Assembly: GCA_009930445.1 (NCBI GenBank)
Contig: RZYD01000003.1
Span: 1-38,355 of the forward strand
From: Bacteroidia bacterium
Lineage (GTDB): Bacteria > Bacteroidota > Bacteroidia > Bacteroidales > BM520
Direction: 5' to 3'
DNA: 38,355 nucleotides
Position numbers and translations under genes: made by a program. Of the stretch, positions 26,797 to 38,113 are shown one piece after another (the first letter of the stretch is position 1; each line of letters begins with the position of its first letter). The notes beneath the pieces were generated by a model, which was not told the origin of the DNA, did not search any database, and saw only the letters and a program-made list of their open reading frames with translations.

Positions 26797-27276
26797 ATGA
26801 AAAAAGTGCAAAAAATTTGGGTGGTAGTGTTGCTGCTGAGTATGGCAGCACCATGGTGTGTCGGGAATACAATACAGTTTTCTGAACCCCGTTTCAGAAT
26901 TAAAATTATTTTTACCTCTTATTTTCGGTCGGCCAAGAAAATGTGTCTCGATGGGTTTGGACTTTGCTTCGCACATTTTATTCAATTTACGGATAATCTT
27001 CCTGTTTCAGAAACAGAAATGGCTGTGGTTGCTGGGGTAACAGAAGATGGCAGTACCCTTGTACTGGAGTTTTCTGAAGAAGGGTTACGTAAATTTGAAC
27101 AGGGTGCGATGCTGGAAAAATTTGAGGGCCGTTCACATGTAGTATTTGATGAGAATCTGGTGTTGGATAGGCGGGTACTTGAGGCATTGGGGTTACCTTT
27201 ATCGCAAAAATTTAATACCAATACCTTCCCGGTTTACAAGGCCAATGGCCGGTTCTATGTGGAAGTGAAGTTGTGA
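26797..27276 (+). CDS. Exported hypothetical protein (159 aa)
   Basis: Signal peptide MKKVQKIWVVVLLLSMAAPWCVG; followed by a strong terminator. Confidence 0.6.
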   Translation: MKKVQKIWVVVLLLSMAAPWCVGNTIQFSEPRFRIKIIFTSYFRSAKKMCLDGFGLCFAHFIQFTDNLPVSETEMAVVAGVTEDGSTLVLEFSEEGLRKFEQGAMLEKFEGRSHVVFDENLVLDRRVLEALGLPLSQKFNTNTFPVYKANGRFYVEVKL

Positions 27277-27645: not shown

Positions 27646-28740
27646 TTAACATCCTCCGGCAGGGGCAGTTTTTATTTCCCCAACAGGCATTGCTTTTTGT
27701 GCGGCAGGGTCTGACTTATCGACTACAAAGGGGTACCCGTGAATCCTTGTCTTGGAAAAGGCATGGTATACTATGGGATCCCGCTCCATCATGACTCCGT
27801 TCATAAAGGAATTTGCCCCGTAATTGAGAGATTTAGCATTATAACCAATCAGATTAAGGTAGGCAATTACAAACGCACTGTGCTGTCCCGTAAAGCAATA
27901 CGGTACAATCGTTTTGTCCGGTGGCAGTGTACTTAGAAATGTCGCACGACCTAGCGATTTTTTGGGGTCATACTGAATGGCTCCTGGGAAATGGCCCAGC
28001 GAATAGAGATCCTCTGGCCAATAGTTGATAATATAATAGTTATCCTTGGTTTCAAACAGCTCGTTAACATTGATACTATATTTTTCAAATCCGTTATTGA
28101 GCAGCTGGATGGCTCTTTCCCTGAGAATGGCGTATCCATCTGTTTTTGTTGTCATTACCTCCGGATATCCGTTTGCCGGCCCTTTAGGGTTTGGTTGCAA
28201 CTCCAACTGGTCTGCAAAGTTGTTCGTACTATTGCTGAGCCATCGATCCCCGGCAAAACTGGCATCCCAGGCACTCATGCCCCACCGTATGGCAAATACA
28301 TTATCATATCCCAGCATCCGAAGTATCGATGTAGCAAAACTGGATGACTGCCCGGCATAACAAACCAGGACAATTTTCGAGAAACTTGGTGCATCAATCT
28401 GGTTTTCAAAATAGGGTATCAATTCTTCCATTTGCAGGTTTTTGGCCCCGCTGATATGTCCGTTGTTGTAATCAGCCGGCCTGCGGATATCAATGACAGG
28501 GTAATGGTTCAGGTTAGCGTAAACTTCTTCGGCATCGATCATTGTCGGCACAATTTTACTGTTGATCAGGTCACCGGAATTTTCAATGTACGTAATCAAA
28601 TTTTCAAATTGGTTCTGCTTTACCTGCACGGCCTGTGCGGTATCATCCGTTTCACGCGTGGTGTTCCCTCCACAACTGCCAAGGATAACAGCTGCCAGTA
28701 GTGAACTTATCAGTAACCCTGTGATTTTTTTCATCATCAT
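27646..28740 (-). CDS. Tandem-rhodanese lipoprotein ending in -GGC
   Basis: SPII LLAAVILGSC; rhodanese loops IVLVCYAGQSS and IVPYCFTGQHS; C-terminus ...KTAPAGGC*. Confidence 0.88.
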   Translation of the reverse strand: MMMKKITGLLISSLLAAVILGSCGGNTTRETDDTAQAVQVKQNQFENLITYIENSGDLINSKIVPTMIDAEEVYANLNHYPVIDIRRPADYNNGHISGAKNLQMEELIPYFENQIDAPSFSKIVLVCYAGQSSSFATSILRMLGYDNVFAIRWGMSAWDASFAGDRWLSNSTNNFADQLELQPNPKGPANGYPEVMTTKTDGYAILRERAIQLLNNGFEKYSINVNELFETKDNYYIINYWPEDLYSLGHFPGAIQYDPKKSLGRATFLSTLPPDKTIVPYCFTGQHSAFVIAYLNLIGYNAKSLNYGANSFMNGVMMERDPIVYHAFSKTRIHGYPFVVDKSDPAAQKAMPVGEIKTAPAGGC

Positions 28741-28875: not shown

Positions 28876-29466
28876 TCAACAGCCTCCGGCGGCTGGCGTC
28901 GTTTGAATCGTTTTCATAATCGGTTTTGGTACTGGAGCAGATGTTTCCGTATTCGAGAAATATTTCGGGTAATCGAATTTGGCTTTTTCTTCTGCATAGC
29001 TGTTAAATTTAGGCTTGTAGGATTTGATTACATTCTGGCGGGCGAAATCATACCCTCCGGCGAGAATATTGAGGTCGTTAAAGCCGGCATTACGCAGGAT
29101 AATCCATCCCTGTACTGCGGCACGTTCGGTTTCGGCAACCAAAACAATAGGTTTGTTGGCATGCCGGATTTGCCGGATACATTTGTGGCACAGGATTTTT
29201 TCTACGGGCATATTAACGGCTCCGGGGATATGATGAATTTCAAAACGGTCGGCATGCCGGAGGTCGATAAACATTACCGGAGATTCGGGCGCGTTCAGCG
29301 CCTGATACAGCTCCCGTAGTGAAAAATAATGATCCTTTGAAAACTCGATACGCCCGTCGATGTACCCGGGAGGGGTTTTGGGCGTCAAGATCGTAGTGGA
29401 AACAAAACCCAGCAGCACAAGGGCCAGGAATGAAAGGGCTGCTATGGTAATTTTATTTGTTTTCAT
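28876..29466 (-). CDS. Membrane-anchored/exported rhodanese-like protein ending in -GGC, catalytic Cys replaced by Ala
   Basis: VMFIDLRHADRFEIHHIPGAVNMP; IVLVAETERAA in place of the Cys loop; C-terminus ...TTPAAGGC*. Confidence 0.85.
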   Translation of the reverse strand: MKTNKITIAALSFLALVLLGFVSTTILTPKTPPGYIDGRIEFSKDHYFSLRELYQALNAPESPVMFIDLRHADRFEIHHIPGAVNMPVEKILCHKCIRQIRHANKPIVLVAETERAAVQGWIILRNAGFNDLNILAGGYDFARQNVIKSYKPKFNSYAEEKAKFDYPKYFSNTETSAPVPKPIMKTIQTTPAAGGC

Positions 29467-29511
29467 AGAATAACAGTATTGATTTCACGAGTATTATTTT
29501 TATAGAGTGCT

Positions 29512-30726
29512 TTAACATCCGCCCTCCACAGCAATGATTTTTGGTTTCACGGGTGCCACCACTGATGGTTTGGCGCTGTTTTCAATGCCCTGAAAGAATT
29601 TTGCTGCTTTGATCCGGAACTGGTATTTATCCATTAGCGGCTTGTAGGCGGGACTGGTAGGAGTAAGCGCTGCGTTGTCAGCAGCAAAAATCTGTTCAAA
29701 AAAGGTATTCAGTCCCCCTTCCAAAATTCTGATATTTTTTATACCTGATTGATAAAGAAGCACATAGGCGTCTTCTGTTAGTACACCAGCATTGGAATAA
29801 AGAATTACTTCCTCTTTGTCATTGAAAAAGGCTCTCCACCGGGGGGCCGTGATTTCATCCAGCGGAATGTGAACAGCACCAGGCAGAGAAAAATAGTTGT
29901 ATTCTTCTGCAGTTCTGATGTCTGCCAGTACCGGTGCGAATTCTTTGTGCATGAGTTTGAAGGCTAATTCATCGGTATCGATGAAACGGCTGTTGTCGTT
30001 GAGTAGTGCACTGATCTCCTCTGCTGCCGGAATACTGCCTTTATTATTTCGCTCTGCCGGAATAAATAACACTACAACACCAAGCAGTACAAGCACTGCC
30101 GCAGCAATCCCGTTTCCTTTCAGAACGCTTTGTTTTACCTGTTGAATTCCGTTGATTTTATTTTCAATGCGTTGTGTGATAGCAAACGCTGCAATGGCCA
30201 TGACAATAAGCAGAAAGGCAAATAGCCCCTGTGAAATGCCGAGGGTGTCATAAATTTTTATTGGGCCCAGTGCTGAAGCATTGTGCAGATTTTCAAATAG
30301 CGGATAACTTTCCGCAAAAAGTAATATTCCCAGCAGAATTCCTCCTAAAAAGAACATGGCATCGATTTTTCCTGTGGCTGCTCCCGCCAGGCTTGTTCCA
30401 GGACAGAATCCCCCGATCACAAAGCCAAAGCCCATGATAACCCCACCAACAAGGGTACTCCATAAAAACGTGGGATTGATAAACACCAGGTTCATGTCGA
30501 TAATCCCGAAATGGTTACCCAGTATCAATCCGACCATTGCGGTAACCGCGGCAGTAAAAAATACGCGTAAAACGACGAAGTCATAGCCGTAAAATACCCC
30601 GGCCAGCTTTCTTGAACTTCCGAATCCGGCTTGTTCGAGGACTGCGCCAAAGAGTACGCCGATAATCAGTGCAATGATTAAATCAAATTCGCTGCTGATG
30701 ATTCCGTAGGGTACTAATGGTCCCAT
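29512..30726 (-). CDS. YeeE/YedE family sulfur transporter half fused to rhodanese-like domain, ending in -GGC
   Basis: Multi-TM, GFGFVIGGFCPGTSLAGAATGKID; rhodanese LADIRTAEEYNYFSLPGAVHIP with VILYSNAG loop; C-terminus ...KIIAVEGGC*. Confidence 0.9.
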   Translation of the reverse strand: MGPLVPYGIISSEFDLIIALIIGVLFGAVLEQAGFGSSRKLAGVFYGYDFVVLRVFFTAAVTAMVGLILGNHFGIIDMNLVFINPTFLWSTLVGGVIMGFGFVIGGFCPGTSLAGAATGKIDAMFFLGGILLGILLFAESYPLFENLHNASALGPIKIYDTLGISQGLFAFLLIVMAIAAFAITQRIENKINGIQQVKQSVLKGNGIAAAVLVLLGVVVLFIPAERNNKGSIPAAEEISALLNDNSRFIDTDELAFKLMHKEFAPVLADIRTAEEYNYFSLPGAVHIPLDEITAPRWRAFFNDKEEVILYSNAGVLTEDAYVLLYQSGIKNIRILEGGLNTFFEQIFAADNAALTPTSPAYKPLMDKYQFRIKAAKFFQGIENSAKPSVVAPVKPKIIAVEGGC

Positions 30727-30744: not shown

Positions 30745-31260
30745 TTATAACCAAAGTTTTTTAAACATCCAGGCGATGAGGTAGCCTGTTCCGAAGATGG
30801 CGATCAGGGTAAGAAAACCCGCTGTAGAGAGCACTGCCATCCCGCTAAGGGCAGCTCCGCTGGTACATCCTCTGCCGAGTTGTGCCCCGATGCCAAACAA
30901 CATCCCTCCAATAACGGCCATAATTAACCGTGTTCTGTTGCTGATACGCGGGCCTTTCTCGATGGTGAATTTCATCCTGTCGGAAACAATCCCCGAAAAG
31001 TTTCCGCCAATTACCATCCCTATAGCCAGAAAAACCAGCCATGAAATCAATGGCTTCTGTCCACCGGTAACGTATTTACTGTAGAAAGTTGTTTCATTGG
31101 CATGATCAGGAGCTACGGCATTCACAGCACTTACCACTACACTCTTCATCGCACCGCTGGCACCTAATCCTCGCCCGCTGAAATAAAATGCTCCCAGTAA
31201 TACCAGGCCCAGCAGGAAACCGGCAAGATACGAATTCATATATCGGCTCTTTTTTTCCAT
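30745..31260 (-). CDS. YeeE/YedE family protein, half-size
   Basis: MEKKSRYMNSYLAGFLLG; IGAQLGRGCTSGAALSGMAVLS; internal ATG at 31260 avoids overlap with the upstream gene. Confidence 0.88.
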   Translation of the reverse strand: MEKKSRYMNSYLAGFLLGLVLLGAFYFSGRGLGASGAMKSVVVSAVNAVAPDHANETTFYSKYVTGGQKPLISWLVFLAIGMVIGGNFSGIVSDRMKFTIEKGPRISNRTRLIMAVIGGMLFGIGAQLGRGCTSGAALSGMAVLSTAGFLTLIAIFGTGYLIAWMFKKLWL

Positions 31261-31270
31261 AGCTTTTGTT

Positions 31271-31945
31271 TTATTGTGGTTGATCCATTTTTTTATTCGT
31301 GTCTTCCTTCTCTTCTTCCGCTTTATCGTCTTCCACCTCTTCATATCCGGTTATCATGGCCTTGAGATTACTGGTTACTGTGGTCCCGGTGCTGATCAGA
31401 TACAGATGAACAATGACAAACACCAGTAACAAAAATGCACCTGCCGAATGAATGATAGCCACATCTTTTAATCCTGAAATGCCCAGTGATTCAACCCCGC
31501 TGCCCTGTGGGTATCGGTAAAACATATATAAGAGGCCGGAAACAACCATCACGGGGATGATTAGAATCTTTAATCCCAGATATACCAGGCGCTGCAATGG
31601 ATTCAGTTTACTAAGGGTGGTTTTTTTTGTGGGATGTGGCGCATTACGAAAAATTCCGGTCAGATAATATTCAATCTGCGCTTTAAGATTTTTTGTGGTC
31701 GGAATATAATTTCGCCATTGGTCGGTTACAAAATGCCAGAAAATGGCGAGCCCAATAAGCCCGATAAATGCCCAGGCCGCATAGTTGTGCCATGTTACGG
31801 CCGTTTCAAACCCAAAAAGATTATATGAAGAGTGAATTTCAAATCCCGTAAGGGCCAGAAAGAAAATTAGTGCAGCCTGTGACCAGTGCCAGAACCGTTC
31901 AAATTTATGATAAATGTAAACTTCCTTTGTTTTCTTTGGTTTCAT
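31271..31945 (-). CDS. Membrane cytochrome b (cytochrome b561/hydrogenase-type b subunit)
   Basis: YIYHKFERFWHWSQAALIFFLALTGFEIHS, TWHNYAAWAFIGL, HSAGAFLLLVFVIVHLYL: TM helices with spaced His; start at 31945. Confidence 0.85.
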   Translation of the reverse strand: MKPKKTKEVYIYHKFERFWHWSQAALIFFLALTGFEIHSSYNLFGFETAVTWHNYAAWAFIGLIGLAIFWHFVTDQWRNYIPTTKNLKAQIEYYLTGIFRNAPHPTKKTTLSKLNPLQRLVYLGLKILIIPVMVVSGLLYMFYRYPQGSGVESLGISGLKDVAIIHSAGAFLLLVFVIVHLYLISTGTTVTSNLKAMITGYEEVEDDKAEEEKEDTNKKMDQPQ

Positions 31946-31961
31946 GTCCGAAATGTTTGGA

Positions 31962-33500
31962 TTAGTGTTTTTTTGCGAAAAAAATCCGAAGTCCACCATG
32001 GATAATAACACCGATCAGGCTTAGGATGATCAACAGTATTCCTCCTTTTTCAATGGATGCATTGTAATTGCGCCCGGGCATATAAAAGTCGTTCAGCCCG
32101 GCCAGCCTTCCGTCTTCCCGCGTATGGCAATCTTTACAGGTCAGCGCTTGCTCCTTGGGTGCTACCATATGCGAAAGCAGCAGGGTCATTTCGGTATGAA
32201 TGAAATCATGCTTCCCACTCCAAGGAATCTCCACCGACTTCATGCCCTCTTCTATGGCTTTGTAGTAATCAAAATCAACCCATAACGCACCTTTCCCCGG
32301 CTCTTTATCCCACACCTTCATCTGTATTAACCGTTTGAGCTCCGGATCCCAAGGCTGCGTGCCGGGGTGAATCTTGACCGGATGAATTTTGGCCTCTTCA
32401 TCGGCATATTTTCCCTTTAACGTGTTAATCTGTACCGGAAACGTATCAATAATGTCGGTGATCAGGTAATGGTCGGCCGTGCCATTAAACCAAATGTAAT
32501 CAGGTACCAGATCGTTACCCCAGGTGAAACTGCCTTTAATGGATAAATAGGTGTGATTCCCTAACGTATCATCAAGGGAGAAGGGTTCCCCCTCCTCATT
32601 TAGTTTTGTGGCTGTCGACCAGTCCCAGCTGGTTTTTGTGCTGTTTACTTTGGCGTAAGTGGGGATGTGGCAGGTCTGGCACGCAACTTTGATGGTGTGC
32701 TCATTTACCACGTCATTGATGTGGGGGCGCAGGGAATGACATTGTGTACAGGAGGCCCTGTTGCGATTCATGGAGGAGACACCGTAATATTTTCCTTTCA
32801 TCTGGTGTTTCTCCGTTTCATGACATTCTACACAGTTCATATCCGCTCCTTCGGAAGTCATGTGCACATCGGTTTCGGGTGAGCAATCGAGCAACGCCAT
32901 ATCCAGCGTGCCGTTTTTAACGTTGTTCCCTCCTGCAGAATGGAAGTGGCACGTTCCACAGTTTTCCCTGGAGGGAAGGCCTACATTTCGGGCAACATGA
33001 CCCAGGTCGACGGATGGATCCGGATATCCCGCCATCCCACTGCCTTTACGATAGGTGCCCGAGTTATCATGGCATACCAGACAGTCGATGTTGAATTCAT
33101 TCTTAAAATCAAAGGTTTTCTGGTCTTCGTAGCCGTACCCGATATGACAGCGTGTGCAGGTTCCCCAACTGCCTCCTATTCCTGTACAGAAGTTGTTCAG
33201 TAAGTTGTTTTTACCCAGCGAAGTGATTCCCCGCCCTTCGATATAGGCTTCCCGCTCCCATTTCCAGTGCGCCGTTTGCATGACTTCCTTTCCTCTTTCT
33301 GTATGACAGCTCAGGCAGGCCGCGGTAAGCGCATGGGGGTTGTCAAAGTCTTTTTGTAAAACCTCAAACTTGCTGTGATCGGCCGATTTTTGCTGCCAGA
33401 TGGGACTGTCCTTCCGGGGAGTATAAAATGTGGGCGAATCCTGCGCCACGAGCCCCAGCAAACATCCGGTCAGAAAAATAAACAATAGTAATGCCTTCAT
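31962..33500 (-). CDS. Octaheme c-type cytochrome, tetrathionate reductase (OTR) family, C-terminal TM anchor
   Basis: Signal peptide and eight CxxCH: CLSCH, CTRCH, CLVCH, CGTCH, CVECH, CTQCH, CQTCH, CKDCH; C-terminal TM. Confidence 0.9.
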   Translation of the reverse strand: MKALLLFIFLTGCLLGLVAQDSPTFYTPRKDSPIWQQKSADHSKFEVLQKDFDNPHALTAACLSCHTERGKEVMQTAHWKWEREAYIEGRGITSLGKNNLLNNFCTGIGGSWGTCTRCHIGYGYEDQKTFDFKNEFNIDCLVCHDNSGTYRKGSGMAGYPDPSVDLGHVARNVGLPSRENCGTCHFHSAGGNNVKNGTLDMALLDCSPETDVHMTSEGADMNCVECHETEKHQMKGKYYGVSSMNRNRASCTQCHSLRPHINDVVNEHTIKVACQTCHIPTYAKVNSTKTSWDWSTATKLNEEGEPFSLDDTLGNHTYLSIKGSFTWGNDLVPDYIWFNGTADHYLITDIIDTFPVQINTLKGKYADEEAKIHPVKIHPGTQPWDPELKRLIQMKVWDKEPGKGALWVDFDYYKAIEEGMKSVEIPWSGKHDFIHTEMTLLLSHMVAPKEQALTCKDCHTREDGRLAGLNDFYMPGRNYNASIEKGGILLIILSLIGVIIHGGLRIFFAKKH

Positions 33501-34615: not shown

Positions 34616-34935
34616 GTGTTTTCTACAAACTTATGTCGTTTGCGATGGCAAAGATACGCCGTTTTTTCTTTCGTACAATACCTTCTGTATTTTTTTTTAT
34701 TTTTTTTAATTTACGGATGCAGGTAGTGCCTGTTTGCTTTTTTCTATTTTTGCATAAATAAGTTTTTTTATGCACAGGTATGTTGTTCAGCTCTATGGCC
34801 ATTATGGTATCGGCCTCTATGAATGCTGGATCAAATAGTCCTTGTTTTTTTCTTTGCCTGTTGCGGGGGTTGCAGCATTTTTCCGGTATTTTTTTATTAC
34901 AATTTATTGTTTCGCATACTAACTACGACAAGCGT

Positions 34936-35742
34936 ATGGGTTTGGAGAAAGGAATAATTTTCGATATAAAGCGGTTCGCAGTCCATGATGGTCCGGGTAT
35001 TCGTACTACGGTCTTTTTTAAAGGCTGTCCGTTGCGCTGCCTCTGGTGCCATAATCCGGAAGGAATTGACGCGGCACAACAATCTGTCAAAAAAAAGCTT
35101 TCAATGGGAGATAAATCGGTGTGGATCGATGAAATAGTCGGCATGGAATATACGGCCCCTGCCTTGATGAATGAACTGGAGAAGGATTACCTCTTCATGG
35201 AGGAATCATCGGGTGGGGTTACCCTCTCCGGAGGAGAACCGCTCATGCAGGCCGCTTTTCTTCTGCAGTTGCTTCCTCTGCTTAAAAAAAGAAAGGTTCA
35301 TGTTGCACTGGATACTTGTGGGTATGCTTCCCCTGCAATTATGGCTGCTGTGCTTCCTTATGTCGATCTCTTTCTCTTTGACCTCAAACATACGGATGCA
35401 CAAATACACCGCAAATTGACCGGAGTGGATTTGGTACCAATTCTTGCTAACTTGCACGAGGTGTTGCAAAGAAAATGTAATGTGCGTATCCGGATTCCCT
35501 ATATTCCCGGAATTCAGGATGATGCGGCAACGCTTTCGGCTTATATTCGTATTTTAGCGCCTCACCGCAGCGACATTGAGGCCATCGACATCCTGCCCTA
35601 TCATTCCATTGCTGCCAACAAGTACCGGCGCTTTGGATTAGCCAATCGTGTAGCGGATTGGAAGGAGCCGACGGAGGAAGAAATAAATAATTTTGCCCGT
35701 GCTTTTCGCTGTGCCGGGTTTCATGTTACTATAGGAGGATAA
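34936..35742 (+). CDS. Glycyl-radical enzyme activating protein (radical SAM, PflA-like)
   Basis: IFDIKRFAVHDGPGIRTTVFFKGCPLRCLWCHNPEG (CxxxCxxC); GGVTLSGGEPLMQ; start at 34936. Confidence 0.93.
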   Translation: MGLEKGIIFDIKRFAVHDGPGIRTTVFFKGCPLRCLWCHNPEGIDAAQQSVKKKLSMGDKSVWIDEIVGMEYTAPALMNELEKDYLFMEESSGGVTLSGGEPLMQAAFLLQLLPLLKKRKVHVALDTCGYASPAIMAAVLPYVDLFLFDLKHTDAQIHRKLTGVDLVPILANLHEVLQRKCNVRIRIPYIPGIQDDAATLSAYIRILAPHRSDIEAIDILPYHSIAANKYRRFGLANRVADWKEPTEEEINNFARAFRCAGFHVTIGG

Positions 35743-35746
35743 TTTT

Positions 35747-38113
35747 ATGCTTTCAGAACGGATTCAAAAACTGCGCAACGAAAGTTTGAATGCGAAAAAT
35801 ATTTTGTCGCCCGAACGGGCAATTCTGGTTACTGGTTTTTATGCTTCGGATGCTATCCGGGGTCTTTCTATACCCATGCAACGTGCCCGTGCCTTTGCGT
35901 ATGTGCTCCGCCACAAAAAAATTCATATTTCCGAGGGTGAACTGATTGTCGGAGAACGCGGCCCTGCGCCCAAAGCAACACCTACCTATCCTGAAATTTG
36001 TCTTCATTCACTCGAGGATCTGGAAATTTTACATAACCGCAAAAAGGTTTCATTCCAGTCGGATGACACGATGCGTGAGATATACCGGGATAAGATCATC
36101 CCGTTCTGGCAGGGGCGTACCCAGCGTGACCGAATCATGAGAAGAATGCAACCGGAGTGGCAGAGGGCCTATGAAACAGGTGTTTTTACCGAGTTTCAGG
36201 AACAAAGAGCCCCGGGGCATACAGTATGTGGTTCAAAAATTTACCAAAACGGCATGAACGATTTTATAGGTCAGATACGTGAACAGATGCGATCGCTTGA
36301 TTTTGCCCGTGACTTTGGCGCACTTGAGCGTTTGGAAGAGCTGGAAGCAATGGAGGTGGTGTGTGAAGCGATTATTGCCTATGCTCACCGGCACGCGGAA
36401 GTGCTGGCCCTGATGGCTGAGAATGAACCGGATCCCTCACGCCGCAAAGAACTGGAATGTATGGAGCAGATATGCCGCAAAGTACCGGCTCAGGCTCCTG
36501 AAACTTTCCATGAAGCGCTTCAATATTACTGGTTTGTGCATGTGGGCGTTGTCACGGAACTAAATCCCTGGGATTCGTTTAATCCCGGCCGGCTCGATCA
36601 ACATCTTTTCCCTTTCTACGAAAAGGAAATAGCCCGCGGTACATTAACCGAGTCTTCAGCCCGTGAATTACTTCAGGCGTTCTGGATTAAGTTTAATAAT
36701 CATCCTTCACCACCCAAAATTGGGGTTACCGCACAGGAAAGCAATACCTATACCGATTTTACCCTGATTAATGTCGGTGGTGTGAAACCCGATGGCAGCG
36801 ATGCTGCTAATGTGCTTAGCTTTATGATTTTGGATACGGTAGAGGAGATGCGGCTGCTTCAGCCGGGCTCCATGGTACAAATTAGCAGGAAAAATCCGGA
36901 TACCCTTATTCATCGTGCCTTACAGATTATTAAAACAGGATTCGGCCAGCCTTCTCTTTTTAATACAGATGGAATTATCCAACAACTGGTTCATCAGAAT
37001 AAAAACATTGAGGATGCCCGCAATGGTGGTGCTAGTGGGTGTGTCGAATCGGGTGCCTTCGGTACCGAAGCGTATATGCTAACCGGATACCTGAACCTGC
37101 CAAAAATTTTGGAAATTACTTTGCATAATGGAACCGATCCGCGAACCGGAAAACTTATCGGCCTGAAAACCGGTGATCCGCGTTTGTTCTTTTCCTTCGA
37201 TGCCCTGATGGAGGCCTGGGAAAAACAGCTGAATTATTTTGTCGCCATAAAACTTGTCGGTAATAATATTATTGAAAAACTTTTTGCGCATTACCTTCCC
37301 GTTCCTTTTCTCTCGGTGCTGATCGACGATTGTATTACCAATGGAAAAGATTATAATGCCGGTGGAGCACGATATAATACTTCCTATGTCCAGGGCGTCG
37401 GTTTAGGAAGTCTGACCGATCAGTTAACGGCACTGAAATATCATATTTTTGACCAAAAGAATTACACCATGGAGGAAATTTTGGAGGCCCTGCATTGTAA
37501 TTTTGAAGGCTTTGAATCTTTGCGCGCCGCACTTATTTATCAAACACCAAAGTATGGAAATGATGATGAATATGCCGACCAGCAGGCCCTTCAGGCTTTT
37601 AATGCGTTTTATAATGCCGTGAATGGAAACGATACACCGCGTGGCGGAAAATACCGGATCAACCTGCTTCCTACAACTTCTCATGTATATTTTGGATCGG
37701 TCATGCTGGCCTCCGCTGATGGCCGTTTGGCCCGAATGCCCCTGTCAGAAGGCATCTCTCCTGTGCAGGGTGCTGATATCAAAGGCCCGACGGCAGTCAT
37801 CAAGTCTGCAGCCCGACTTAACCATACGAAAACCGGTGGTACGTTGCTAAATCAAAAATTTTCACCGTCATTTTTTAATTCTGTCGATAGTTATCAGAAA
37901 ATTACGGCCTTGATTCGTACCTATTTTCGCCTCAACGGGCATCACATTCAGTTCAATGTTGTGGATGCCCAAACTCTGCGTGATGCCAGAGAAAATCCTG
38001 AACAATACCGCGATCTTATCGTCAGGGTAGCCGGATATAGTGATTATTTTAACGATTTGGGCGATGATCTTCAGGAGGAGATTATCCGCCGAACAGAACA
38101 AGCATCCCTGTAA
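35747..38113 (+). CDS. Glycyl radical enzyme (PFL2-like); trans-4-hydroxy-L-proline dehydratase (HypD)-like candidate
   Basis: Cys loop GGASGCVESGAFGTEAYMLTGYLNLPKILEITLHNG; glycyl loop VRVAGYSDYFNDL; RAPGHTV. Confidence 0.88.
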   Translation: MLSERIQKLRNESLNAKNILSPERAILVTGFYASDAIRGLSIPMQRARAFAYVLRHKKIHISEGELIVGERGPAPKATPTYPEICLHSLEDLEILHNRKKVSFQSDDTMREIYRDKIIPFWQGRTQRDRIMRRMQPEWQRAYETGVFTEFQEQRAPGHTVCGSKIYQNGMNDFIGQIREQMRSLDFARDFGALERLEELEAMEVVCEAIIAYAHRHAEVLALMAENEPDPSRRKELECMEQICRKVPAQAPETFHEALQYYWFVHVGVVTELNPWDSFNPGRLDQHLFPFYEKEIARGTLTESSARELLQAFWIKFNNHPSPPKIGVTAQESNTYTDFTLINVGGVKPDGSDAANVLSFMILDTVEEMRLLQPGSMVQISRKNPDTLIHRALQIIKTGFGQPSLFNTDGIIQQLVHQNKNIEDARNGGASGCVESGAFGTEAYMLTGYLNLPKILEITLHNGTDPRTGKLIGLKTGDPRLFFSFDALMEAWEKQLNYFVAIKLVGNNIIEKLFAHYLPVPFLSVLIDDCITNGKDYNAGGARYNTSYVQGVGLGSLTDQLTALKYHIFDQKNYTMEEILEALHCNFEGFESLRAALIYQTPKYGNDDEYADQQALQAFNAFYNAVNGNDTPRGGKYRINLLPTTSHVYFGSVMLASADGRLARMPLSEGISPVQGADIKGPTAVIKSAARLNHTKTGGTLLNQKFSPSFFNSVDSYQKITALIRTYFRLNGHHIQFNVVDAQTLRDARENPEQYRDLIVRVAGYSDYFNDLGDDLQEEIIRRTEQASL

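Follow-up and report, generated by a model that had tools for sequence, protein, structure and literature searches.

Rhodanese-fold proteins without a loop cysteine, found beside a split sulfur transporter in many Bacteroidota, probably carry sulfur on a C-terminal arm outside the membrane

DsrC is a cytoplasmic protein with two conserved cysteines that carries sulfur for a reductase, and it has a flexible arm in which a cysteine is the C-terminal residue or the one beside it. Sud is a rhodanese whose catalytic loop cysteine is intact. In Wolinella it acts as the periplasmic sulfurtransferase of polysulfide respiration (PMC3397948). SoxY has a GGCGG arm (PMC6067878), transfer of sulfur from its cysteine to the YeeE-like transporter SoxT has been proposed (PMC11582611), and divergent soxY genes adjoin otr in lucinid symbionts (PMC11237559). 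Among the transporters, the split YedE1E2 imports zero-valent sulfur and requires both of its cysteines (PMC10812762), PmpAB is a split relative of YeeE type (PMC11582611), and in the YeeE-YeeD (TsuA-TsuB) system Cys293 of the structure 6LEO is the first cysteine of a relay whose fourth, Cys17 of YeeD, lies on the cytoplasmic side (PMC11073785).

Here we describe a window of 38,355 nucleotides from a Bacteroidia bacterium (assembly GCA_009930445.1, contig RZYD01000003.1), in which rhodanese domains that had lost the catalytic cysteine and gained a C-terminal one had been predicted between positions 28876 and 30726. Our analysis shows that many Bacteroidota encode rhodaneses of this kind alongside the two halves of a split sulfur transporter, mostly together with an enzyme of sulfur respiration, and that the tail is probably a sulfur-carrying arm outside the membrane.

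The window operon and its rhodanese-fold proteins

The minus strand of the window carries an operon-like run of six genes, in the order OTR, cytochrome b561-type subunit, YeeE, YedE-rhodanese fusion, 196-aa rhodanese and two-domain lipoprotein. The OTR, cytochrome b, YeeE and lipoprotein genes, the last encoding a tailed protein with intact catalytic cysteines, lie beyond the 28876-30726 segment. The features of the run are:

31962..33500, minus strand: octaheme c-type cytochrome of the OTR (tetrathionate reductase) family (TIGR04315, 8 CXXCH)
31271..32011, minus strand: cytochrome b561-type membrane subunit, thiosulfate reductase cytochrome b-like (PF01292, NF011582)
30745..31344, minus strand: YeeE half-transporter, ORF of 199 aa (PF04143)
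30865..30867, minus strand: YeeE Cys160, invariant in 96/96 and aligned to Cys293 of 6LEO
29512..30726, minus strand: 404-aa protein, YedE (N-terminal half of YeeE/YedE) joined to a predicted periplasmic pseudo-rhodanese with a GGC tail (PF04143 and PF00581)
30403..30405, minus strand: Cys108 (GFCPGT) in the YedE part of the fusion, invariant in 101/101 orthologues
29794..29796, minus strand: Ser311 codon of the YedE fusion, at the rhodanese catalytic cysteine position (profile alignment)
29515..29523, minus strand: Gly-Gly-Cys end (402-404) of the YedE fusion (sequence; invariant in alignment A1)
28876..29466, minus strand: 196-aa single-domain pseudo-rhodanese with a long linker and a C-terminal GGC (ORF, PF00581, AF2 fold)
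29134..29136, minus strand: Ala111 codon of the 196-aa protein, at the rhodanese catalytic cysteine position (profile alignment)
28879..28887, minus strand: Gly-Gly-Cys end (194-196) of the 196-aa protein (sequence; invariant in alignments A2 and A5)
27646..28740, minus strand: 364-aa two-domain rhodanese lipoprotein with GGC at the C-terminus and both catalytic cysteines present (ORF, PF00581, alignment)
28360..28362, minus strand: Cys127, intact catalytic cysteine of lipoprotein domain 1 (profile alignment)
27895..27897, minus strand: Cys282, intact catalytic cysteine of lipoprotein domain 2 (profile alignment)
27649..27657, minus strand: Gly-Gly-Cys end (362-364) of the lipoprotein (sequence)

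Both the 196-aa protein and the rhodanese part of the fusion match PF00581 above the cut-off (E values of 1.7e-12 and 2.4e-11), yet the catalytic cysteine of the CxxGxR motif is absent from each. Specifically, the loop of the 196-aa protein reads VLV-A-ETERAA with Ala111 at the cysteine position, while that of the fusion reads ILY-S-NAGVL with Ser311 in its place. These are the replacements named in the original prediction, which was also correct in holding the loop cysteine of lipoprotein domain 1 (Cys127) to be intact and made no mention of Cys282 in domain 2; the C-terminal GGC it had pointed out is present in all three rhodanese proteins. The SoxY domain (PF13501) was absent from the rhodaneses of the window, where only PF00581 and PF04143 were found above cut-off.

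The remaining genes were assigned by profile. The OTR gene product scored 541 bits against TIGR04315 (cut-off 375) and has eight CXXCH motifs. PF04143 was matched by both halves of the transporter, and the true start of YeeE is probably near position 31260, judging by orthologue lengths of about 171-175 aa. A search of the PDB by sequence matched the window YeeE to Spirochaeta thermophila YeeE/TsuA (6LEO, E 2.6e-7), the invariant cysteine aligning with Cys293, and gave no match for the YedE half. Across orthologues each half has one invariant cysteine and few others. A search of the window's genome, an 829-contig draft assembly, found no TusA, and one for SoxY gave no match in this genome and none for its positive control either.

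Regarding location, an N-terminal hydrophobic segment was found in 116 of the 118 unfused heads; in the 196-aa protein it is a transmembrane or signal helix at residues 4-26, following MKTNK. In the fusion, a helix predicted at residues 201-221 is preceded by a basic stretch, from which the positive-inside rule places the head probably in the periplasm. The AF2 model of the 196-aa protein has a mean pLDDT of 80, with the domain above 90, the linker at about 50 and the tail at 62-71, and its matches in the PDB are rhodaneses (E down to 4e-6). For the fusion the pLDDT is 70, with the head above 90, the membrane part at about 50-75 and the last residues at about 47. In both models the placement of the tail is of low confidence.

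Some further features of the window were noted. The 196-aa protein has a CHKC (CxxC) at residues 93-96, matched by CPKC in its closest relative, L021, and missing from the next relative, L022, and it thus represents a local extra thiol pair. On the plus strand, positions 34780-38113 encode, by translation, an activating enzyme and, downstream of it, the glycyl-radical enzyme that it serves (GGASGCVESG and RVAGYSDYF-like motifs), and positions 26797-27276 a 159-aa protein with a signal-like start that matched no Pfam or NCBIfam family above cut-off.

Conservation and ancestry of the loop and the tail

Relatives were gathered in three sets. A search of 59 relatives used a whole protein as query, and regions were fetched from it (set 1). 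A scan of 85,488 species genomes for an internal motif led to 80 loci being kept (set 2), all of them labelled Bacteroidota and including Marinifilum, Carboxylicivirga and Draconibacterium. Lastly, a phylum-wide profile search of 398 sampled Bacteroidota genomes contributed 40 further regions (set 3); the profile was matched at E < 1e-20 in about 60 of the 398 genomes, a figure that leans towards tailed proteins since the profile spans the tail.

In sets 1 and 2 together, the loop cysteine was absent from 122 of the 126 single-domain or fused rhodaneses ending in GGC, and in 95 of the 126 the terminal cysteine is the only one. Unfused members mostly have one cysteine overall, at the last residue or adjoining it. 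Single-domain and YedE-fused rhodaneses from all sets were then pooled and thinned to 70% identity. Among representatives with a non-cysteine loop residue the tail cysteine was present in 95 and absent in three, and among those with a loop cysteine a tail was present in six and absent in 22 (Fisher p 3.6e-16, uncorrected for shared ancestry). Control rhodaneses of Bacteroidota obtained in the same phylum search had the loop cysteine in 18 of 19 cases and no cysteine tail in any (17 controls after thinning). The orthologues across Bacteroidota thus do without the loop cysteine. A local mutation or sequencing error is ruled out, given that the orthologues have both traits.

In the loci studied, 135 of the 146 rhodanese genes end in GGC followed by zero to two residues, against one of 1129 other genes, and these ends are therefore beyond chance. 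The one non-rhodanese gene, L128:14096-14683, occupies the position of the second pseudo-rhodanese and encodes 196 aa with a single cysteine in a GGCS tail; it is probably a rhodanese that has diverged past recognition by the profile. The terminal variants seen were GGC, GGCG, GGCE and GGCGG. More distant Psr-type operons have ends that are mostly K[KR]EGC or VRMGC, and the deeper rule is therefore a C-terminal Gly-Cys. Members with neither loop cysteine nor cysteine tail are rare, the examples being a second rhodanese (L045:1952-2464) and a fusion (L025:6307-7425). There is no transmembrane segment after the tail. A selenocysteine at the tail was also considered, and is ruled out by the stop codons that follow it (TAA in 83, TGA in 32 and TAG in 21). 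Judged from these sequences, the loss of the loop cysteine together with a terminal cysteine is a conserved, selected trait.

A domain tree was built with the loop column removed; it rests on 93 columns and many of its forks are unresolved. In this tree 99 representatives, 97 of them tailed, form one group with an SH-aLRT of 96, and ordinary rhodaneses and the two-domain lipoproteins fall outside it. As the cysteine-less members make up one clade, the loop cysteine was lost essentially once, with two cases of apparent regain (L180 and L039). Repeated independent co-evolution of loop loss and tail is not borne out by this single clade, in which independent pairs are uninformative. The correlated loss foreseen by the original prediction accordingly stands as a co-occurrence, but one that goes back to one ancestral event, and the loop/tail correlation is for that reason no independent evidence. 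Independent evidence comes instead from the long conservation of the trait and from the concerted tails described below. Tails are also found on other lineages in similar loci, with 11 of 15 two-domain cassette lipoproteins having one. Another arrangement was seen at L046:3848-8803 and L122:8688-14329, where intact-loop rhodanese lipoproteins ending in GGCGG or SSGGC are accompanied by two-domain rhodaneses and by a 336-360-aa protein of no known kind; at L046 it adjoins a full-length YeeE together with TusA- and DsrE-like genes, and at L122 OTR and cytochrome b.

Changes to the loop extend past the cysteine, which falls from 94% in the controls to 2% in the clade. The glycine at +3 of CxxGxR falls from 94% to 8% and the arginine at +5 from 76% to under 10%, which indicates that the anion pocket has been dismantled beyond the mere loss of a thiol. 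The clade retains the Asp and Arg of the D-x-R motif (about 100%) as well as a GG close to where the domain ends; the fold has thus been kept without its anion-binding catalytic loop. A new loop consensus, [SAG]-[NED]-..., has a Trp at +10 in 63% of the clade. That these domains are useless and decaying is unlikely, given the retained D-x-R and GG scaffold and the persistence of this consensus.

The tails were compared in the 23 loci that have at least two tailed rhodaneses, using the ten residues before GGC and leaving out the end motif itself. Tail identity was 49% within a locus against 17% between loci, a value as high being reached in none of 5000 class-preserving permutations, and the residues after the cysteine agreed in 93% of cases within loci against 47% between them. 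In these pairs the rhodanese domains are 24% identical within loci and 28% between them. In L034, for instance, three proteins have the common end HKKKKQAAAGGCE. Such likeness would reflect either gene conversion or a single partner reading all tails of the operon, and under both the tail acts as a separate module.

Operon context, a proposed carrier arm and its alternatives

Two operon types were distinguished. In type I, genes for a molybdenum catalytic subunit, an FeS protein and NrfD (Psr/Phs-like) precede YeeE, YedE and an unfused tailed head, whereas in type II, that of the window, OTR and cytochrome b561 precede YeeE and a YedE fused to the tailed head; the fusion of head and YedE is present in almost every OTR-type operon. 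The Psr/Phs-type loci matched PF00384, Fer4 and PF03916 (NrfD anchor), and the catalytic subunit scored 491 bits against the PhsA equivalog, below its cut-off of 694. Nearly every locus has the split YeeE/YedE as a constant neighbour, and almost all of the complete loci also have a Psr/Phs-like or OTR gene set upstream. Near Psr-type operons, a gene for a MobA-like molybdenum cofactor guanylyltransferase was seen in 37 loci (e.g. L087:2005-2730).

We consider it fairly probable that these proteins are dead, membrane-anchored periplasmic rhodanese heads with a C-terminal sulfur-carrier arm, trading sulfur with YeeE/YedE, the reductase or both. The arm would be flexible, about 40-65 residues long and usually basic, with the terminal cysteine as the working thiol, and would act as a sulfur carrier in the manner of SoxY or DsrC, the rhodanese fold being retained as a docking head. 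The thiol may receive its sulfur, as a persulfide (or thiosulfonate), either through the turnover of sulfur compounds or by the action of an intact two-domain rhodanese; such rhodaneses, where present, may be the loaders of the arm. The arm could then swap sulfur with the periplasm-facing cysteine of YeeE/YedE that corresponds to TsuA Cys293, with the reductase encoded next to it (a Psr/Phs-like complex or, in the window, OTR), or with both. Both options of the original prediction, a tail that supplies the thiol and a pseudo-rhodanese that acts as a scaffold, fit.

The sequence basis for this carrier arm consists of a loop that no longer has its Cys, Gly and Arg, the near-invariant tail cysteine, the linkage to YeeE/YedE and the reductase, and the concerted tails. 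The loop/tail counts and their controls, and the many proteins with one cysteine, speak for it, as do the invariant YeeE/YedE cysteines and the N-terminal hydrophobic segments. It is further favoured by L128, where the tail is kept on a domain no longer recognisable as a rhodanese, and by the recurrence of the YeeE/YedE-rhodanese cassette with Psr-like or OTR genes and also free of any reductase (L194, L200). Counted against the carrier arm are the missing tails of L025 and L045, the low AF2 confidence in the position of the tail, the lack in the draft genome of TusA as a cytoplasmic acceptor for any imported sulfur, and the single ancestral loss, which means that the co-occurrence is not one of repeated evolution; the concerted tails, moreover, could arise by gene conversion without a common partner. 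A more specific version can be put forward only tentatively: the arm may add one more cysteine where YeeE/YedE opens to the periplasm, shuttling sulfane sulfur to and from interchangeable reductases with intact rhodaneses as same-tailed loaders, and would then constitute an undescribed system of Bacteroidota.

An unlikely alternative, although one with a precedent in Wolinella Sud (PMC3397948), is that the armed proteins donate polysulfide sulfur to Psr/Phs or OTR only and that YeeE/YedE is a bystander. The reductase set upstream in nearly all complete loci agrees with such a donor; it is YeeE/YedE, however, that stays constant as the partner and that OTR-type operons join to the head in one protein, and in L194 and L200 the YeeE-YedE-rhodanese core occurs without a reductase. 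We less favour, and think improbable, the main idea of the original prediction, a terminal cysteine that enters the vacated pocket of its own protein or of a neighbour and so restores sulfurtransferase chemistry. The linker is long enough, Ser, Gly or Ala at the cysteine position would leave space, and the new consensus with its Trp suggests a pocket still in use, but the dismantled loop, which has lost Gly+3 and Arg+5 as well, argues against the tail thiol simply restoring rhodanese chemistry. The tail of the diverged L128 member, which has no recognisable rhodanese domain to enter, the like tails on intact two-domain rhodaneses and the low AF2 confidence for the tail also weigh against it.

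Least probable of all, and in our view very unlikely, is a structural role in which the terminal cysteines form intermolecular disulfides or bind metal or heme and the heads scaffold a membrane complex. One cysteine per protein does make an intramolecular disulfide impossible, and several proteins per operon have like tails; one cysteine and two glycines would, however, form a poor metal site, and the sulfur-metabolism setting and the SoxY-like motif point to sulfur chemistry.

Comparison with known sulfur carriers and transporters

Cysteine-tailed pseudo-rhodaneses were not described in the non-subscription literature searched, and no NCBIfam model names such a family. The logic of a carrier arm is known, while neither the cysteine-tailed family nor its association with YeeE/YedE seems to have been described. 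In this widespread family catalytic chemistry has seemingly moved from the active-site loop to a C-terminal arm, and the standard annotation as rhodanese would consequently predict the wrong chemistry. For anaerobic Bacteroidota, the arm suggests a way in which thiosulfate, polysulfide or tetrathionate could be handled, and it bears on an open point in the SoxT/TsuA literature, namely the partner at the periplasmic mouth of YeeE/YedE.

As in YedE1E2, PmpAB and SoxT, there are two half-transporters with one conserved cysteine each; here, however, a cysteine-tailed pseudo-rhodanese is joined to one of the halves or encoded after it, and the usual cassette is without a TusA/YeeD partner. YeeE-YeeD (TsuA-TsuB) likewise places a partner thiol at the mouth of a cysteine relay (YeeD Cys17, PMC11073785), but YeeD is a cytoplasmic protein of the TusA family whereas the present arm is predicted to be periplasmic and would sit at the opposite mouth. 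Unlike Sud, the present proteins have no loop cysteine, and their main thiol lies at the C-terminus. SoxY is also periplasmic, has Gly-Gly-Cys on a flexible C-terminal arm and has sulfur enzymes encoded nearby; the head here nevertheless has a rhodanese rather than a SoxY fold, the cysteine is usually the last residue, and no sox genes were noticed in the rhodanese cassettes. DsrC shares the flexible arm with a terminal cysteine on a fold unrelated to the rhodanese heads. Beside SoxY and DsrC, these proteins would thus represent a third apparent invention of a cysteine swinging arm for sulfur.
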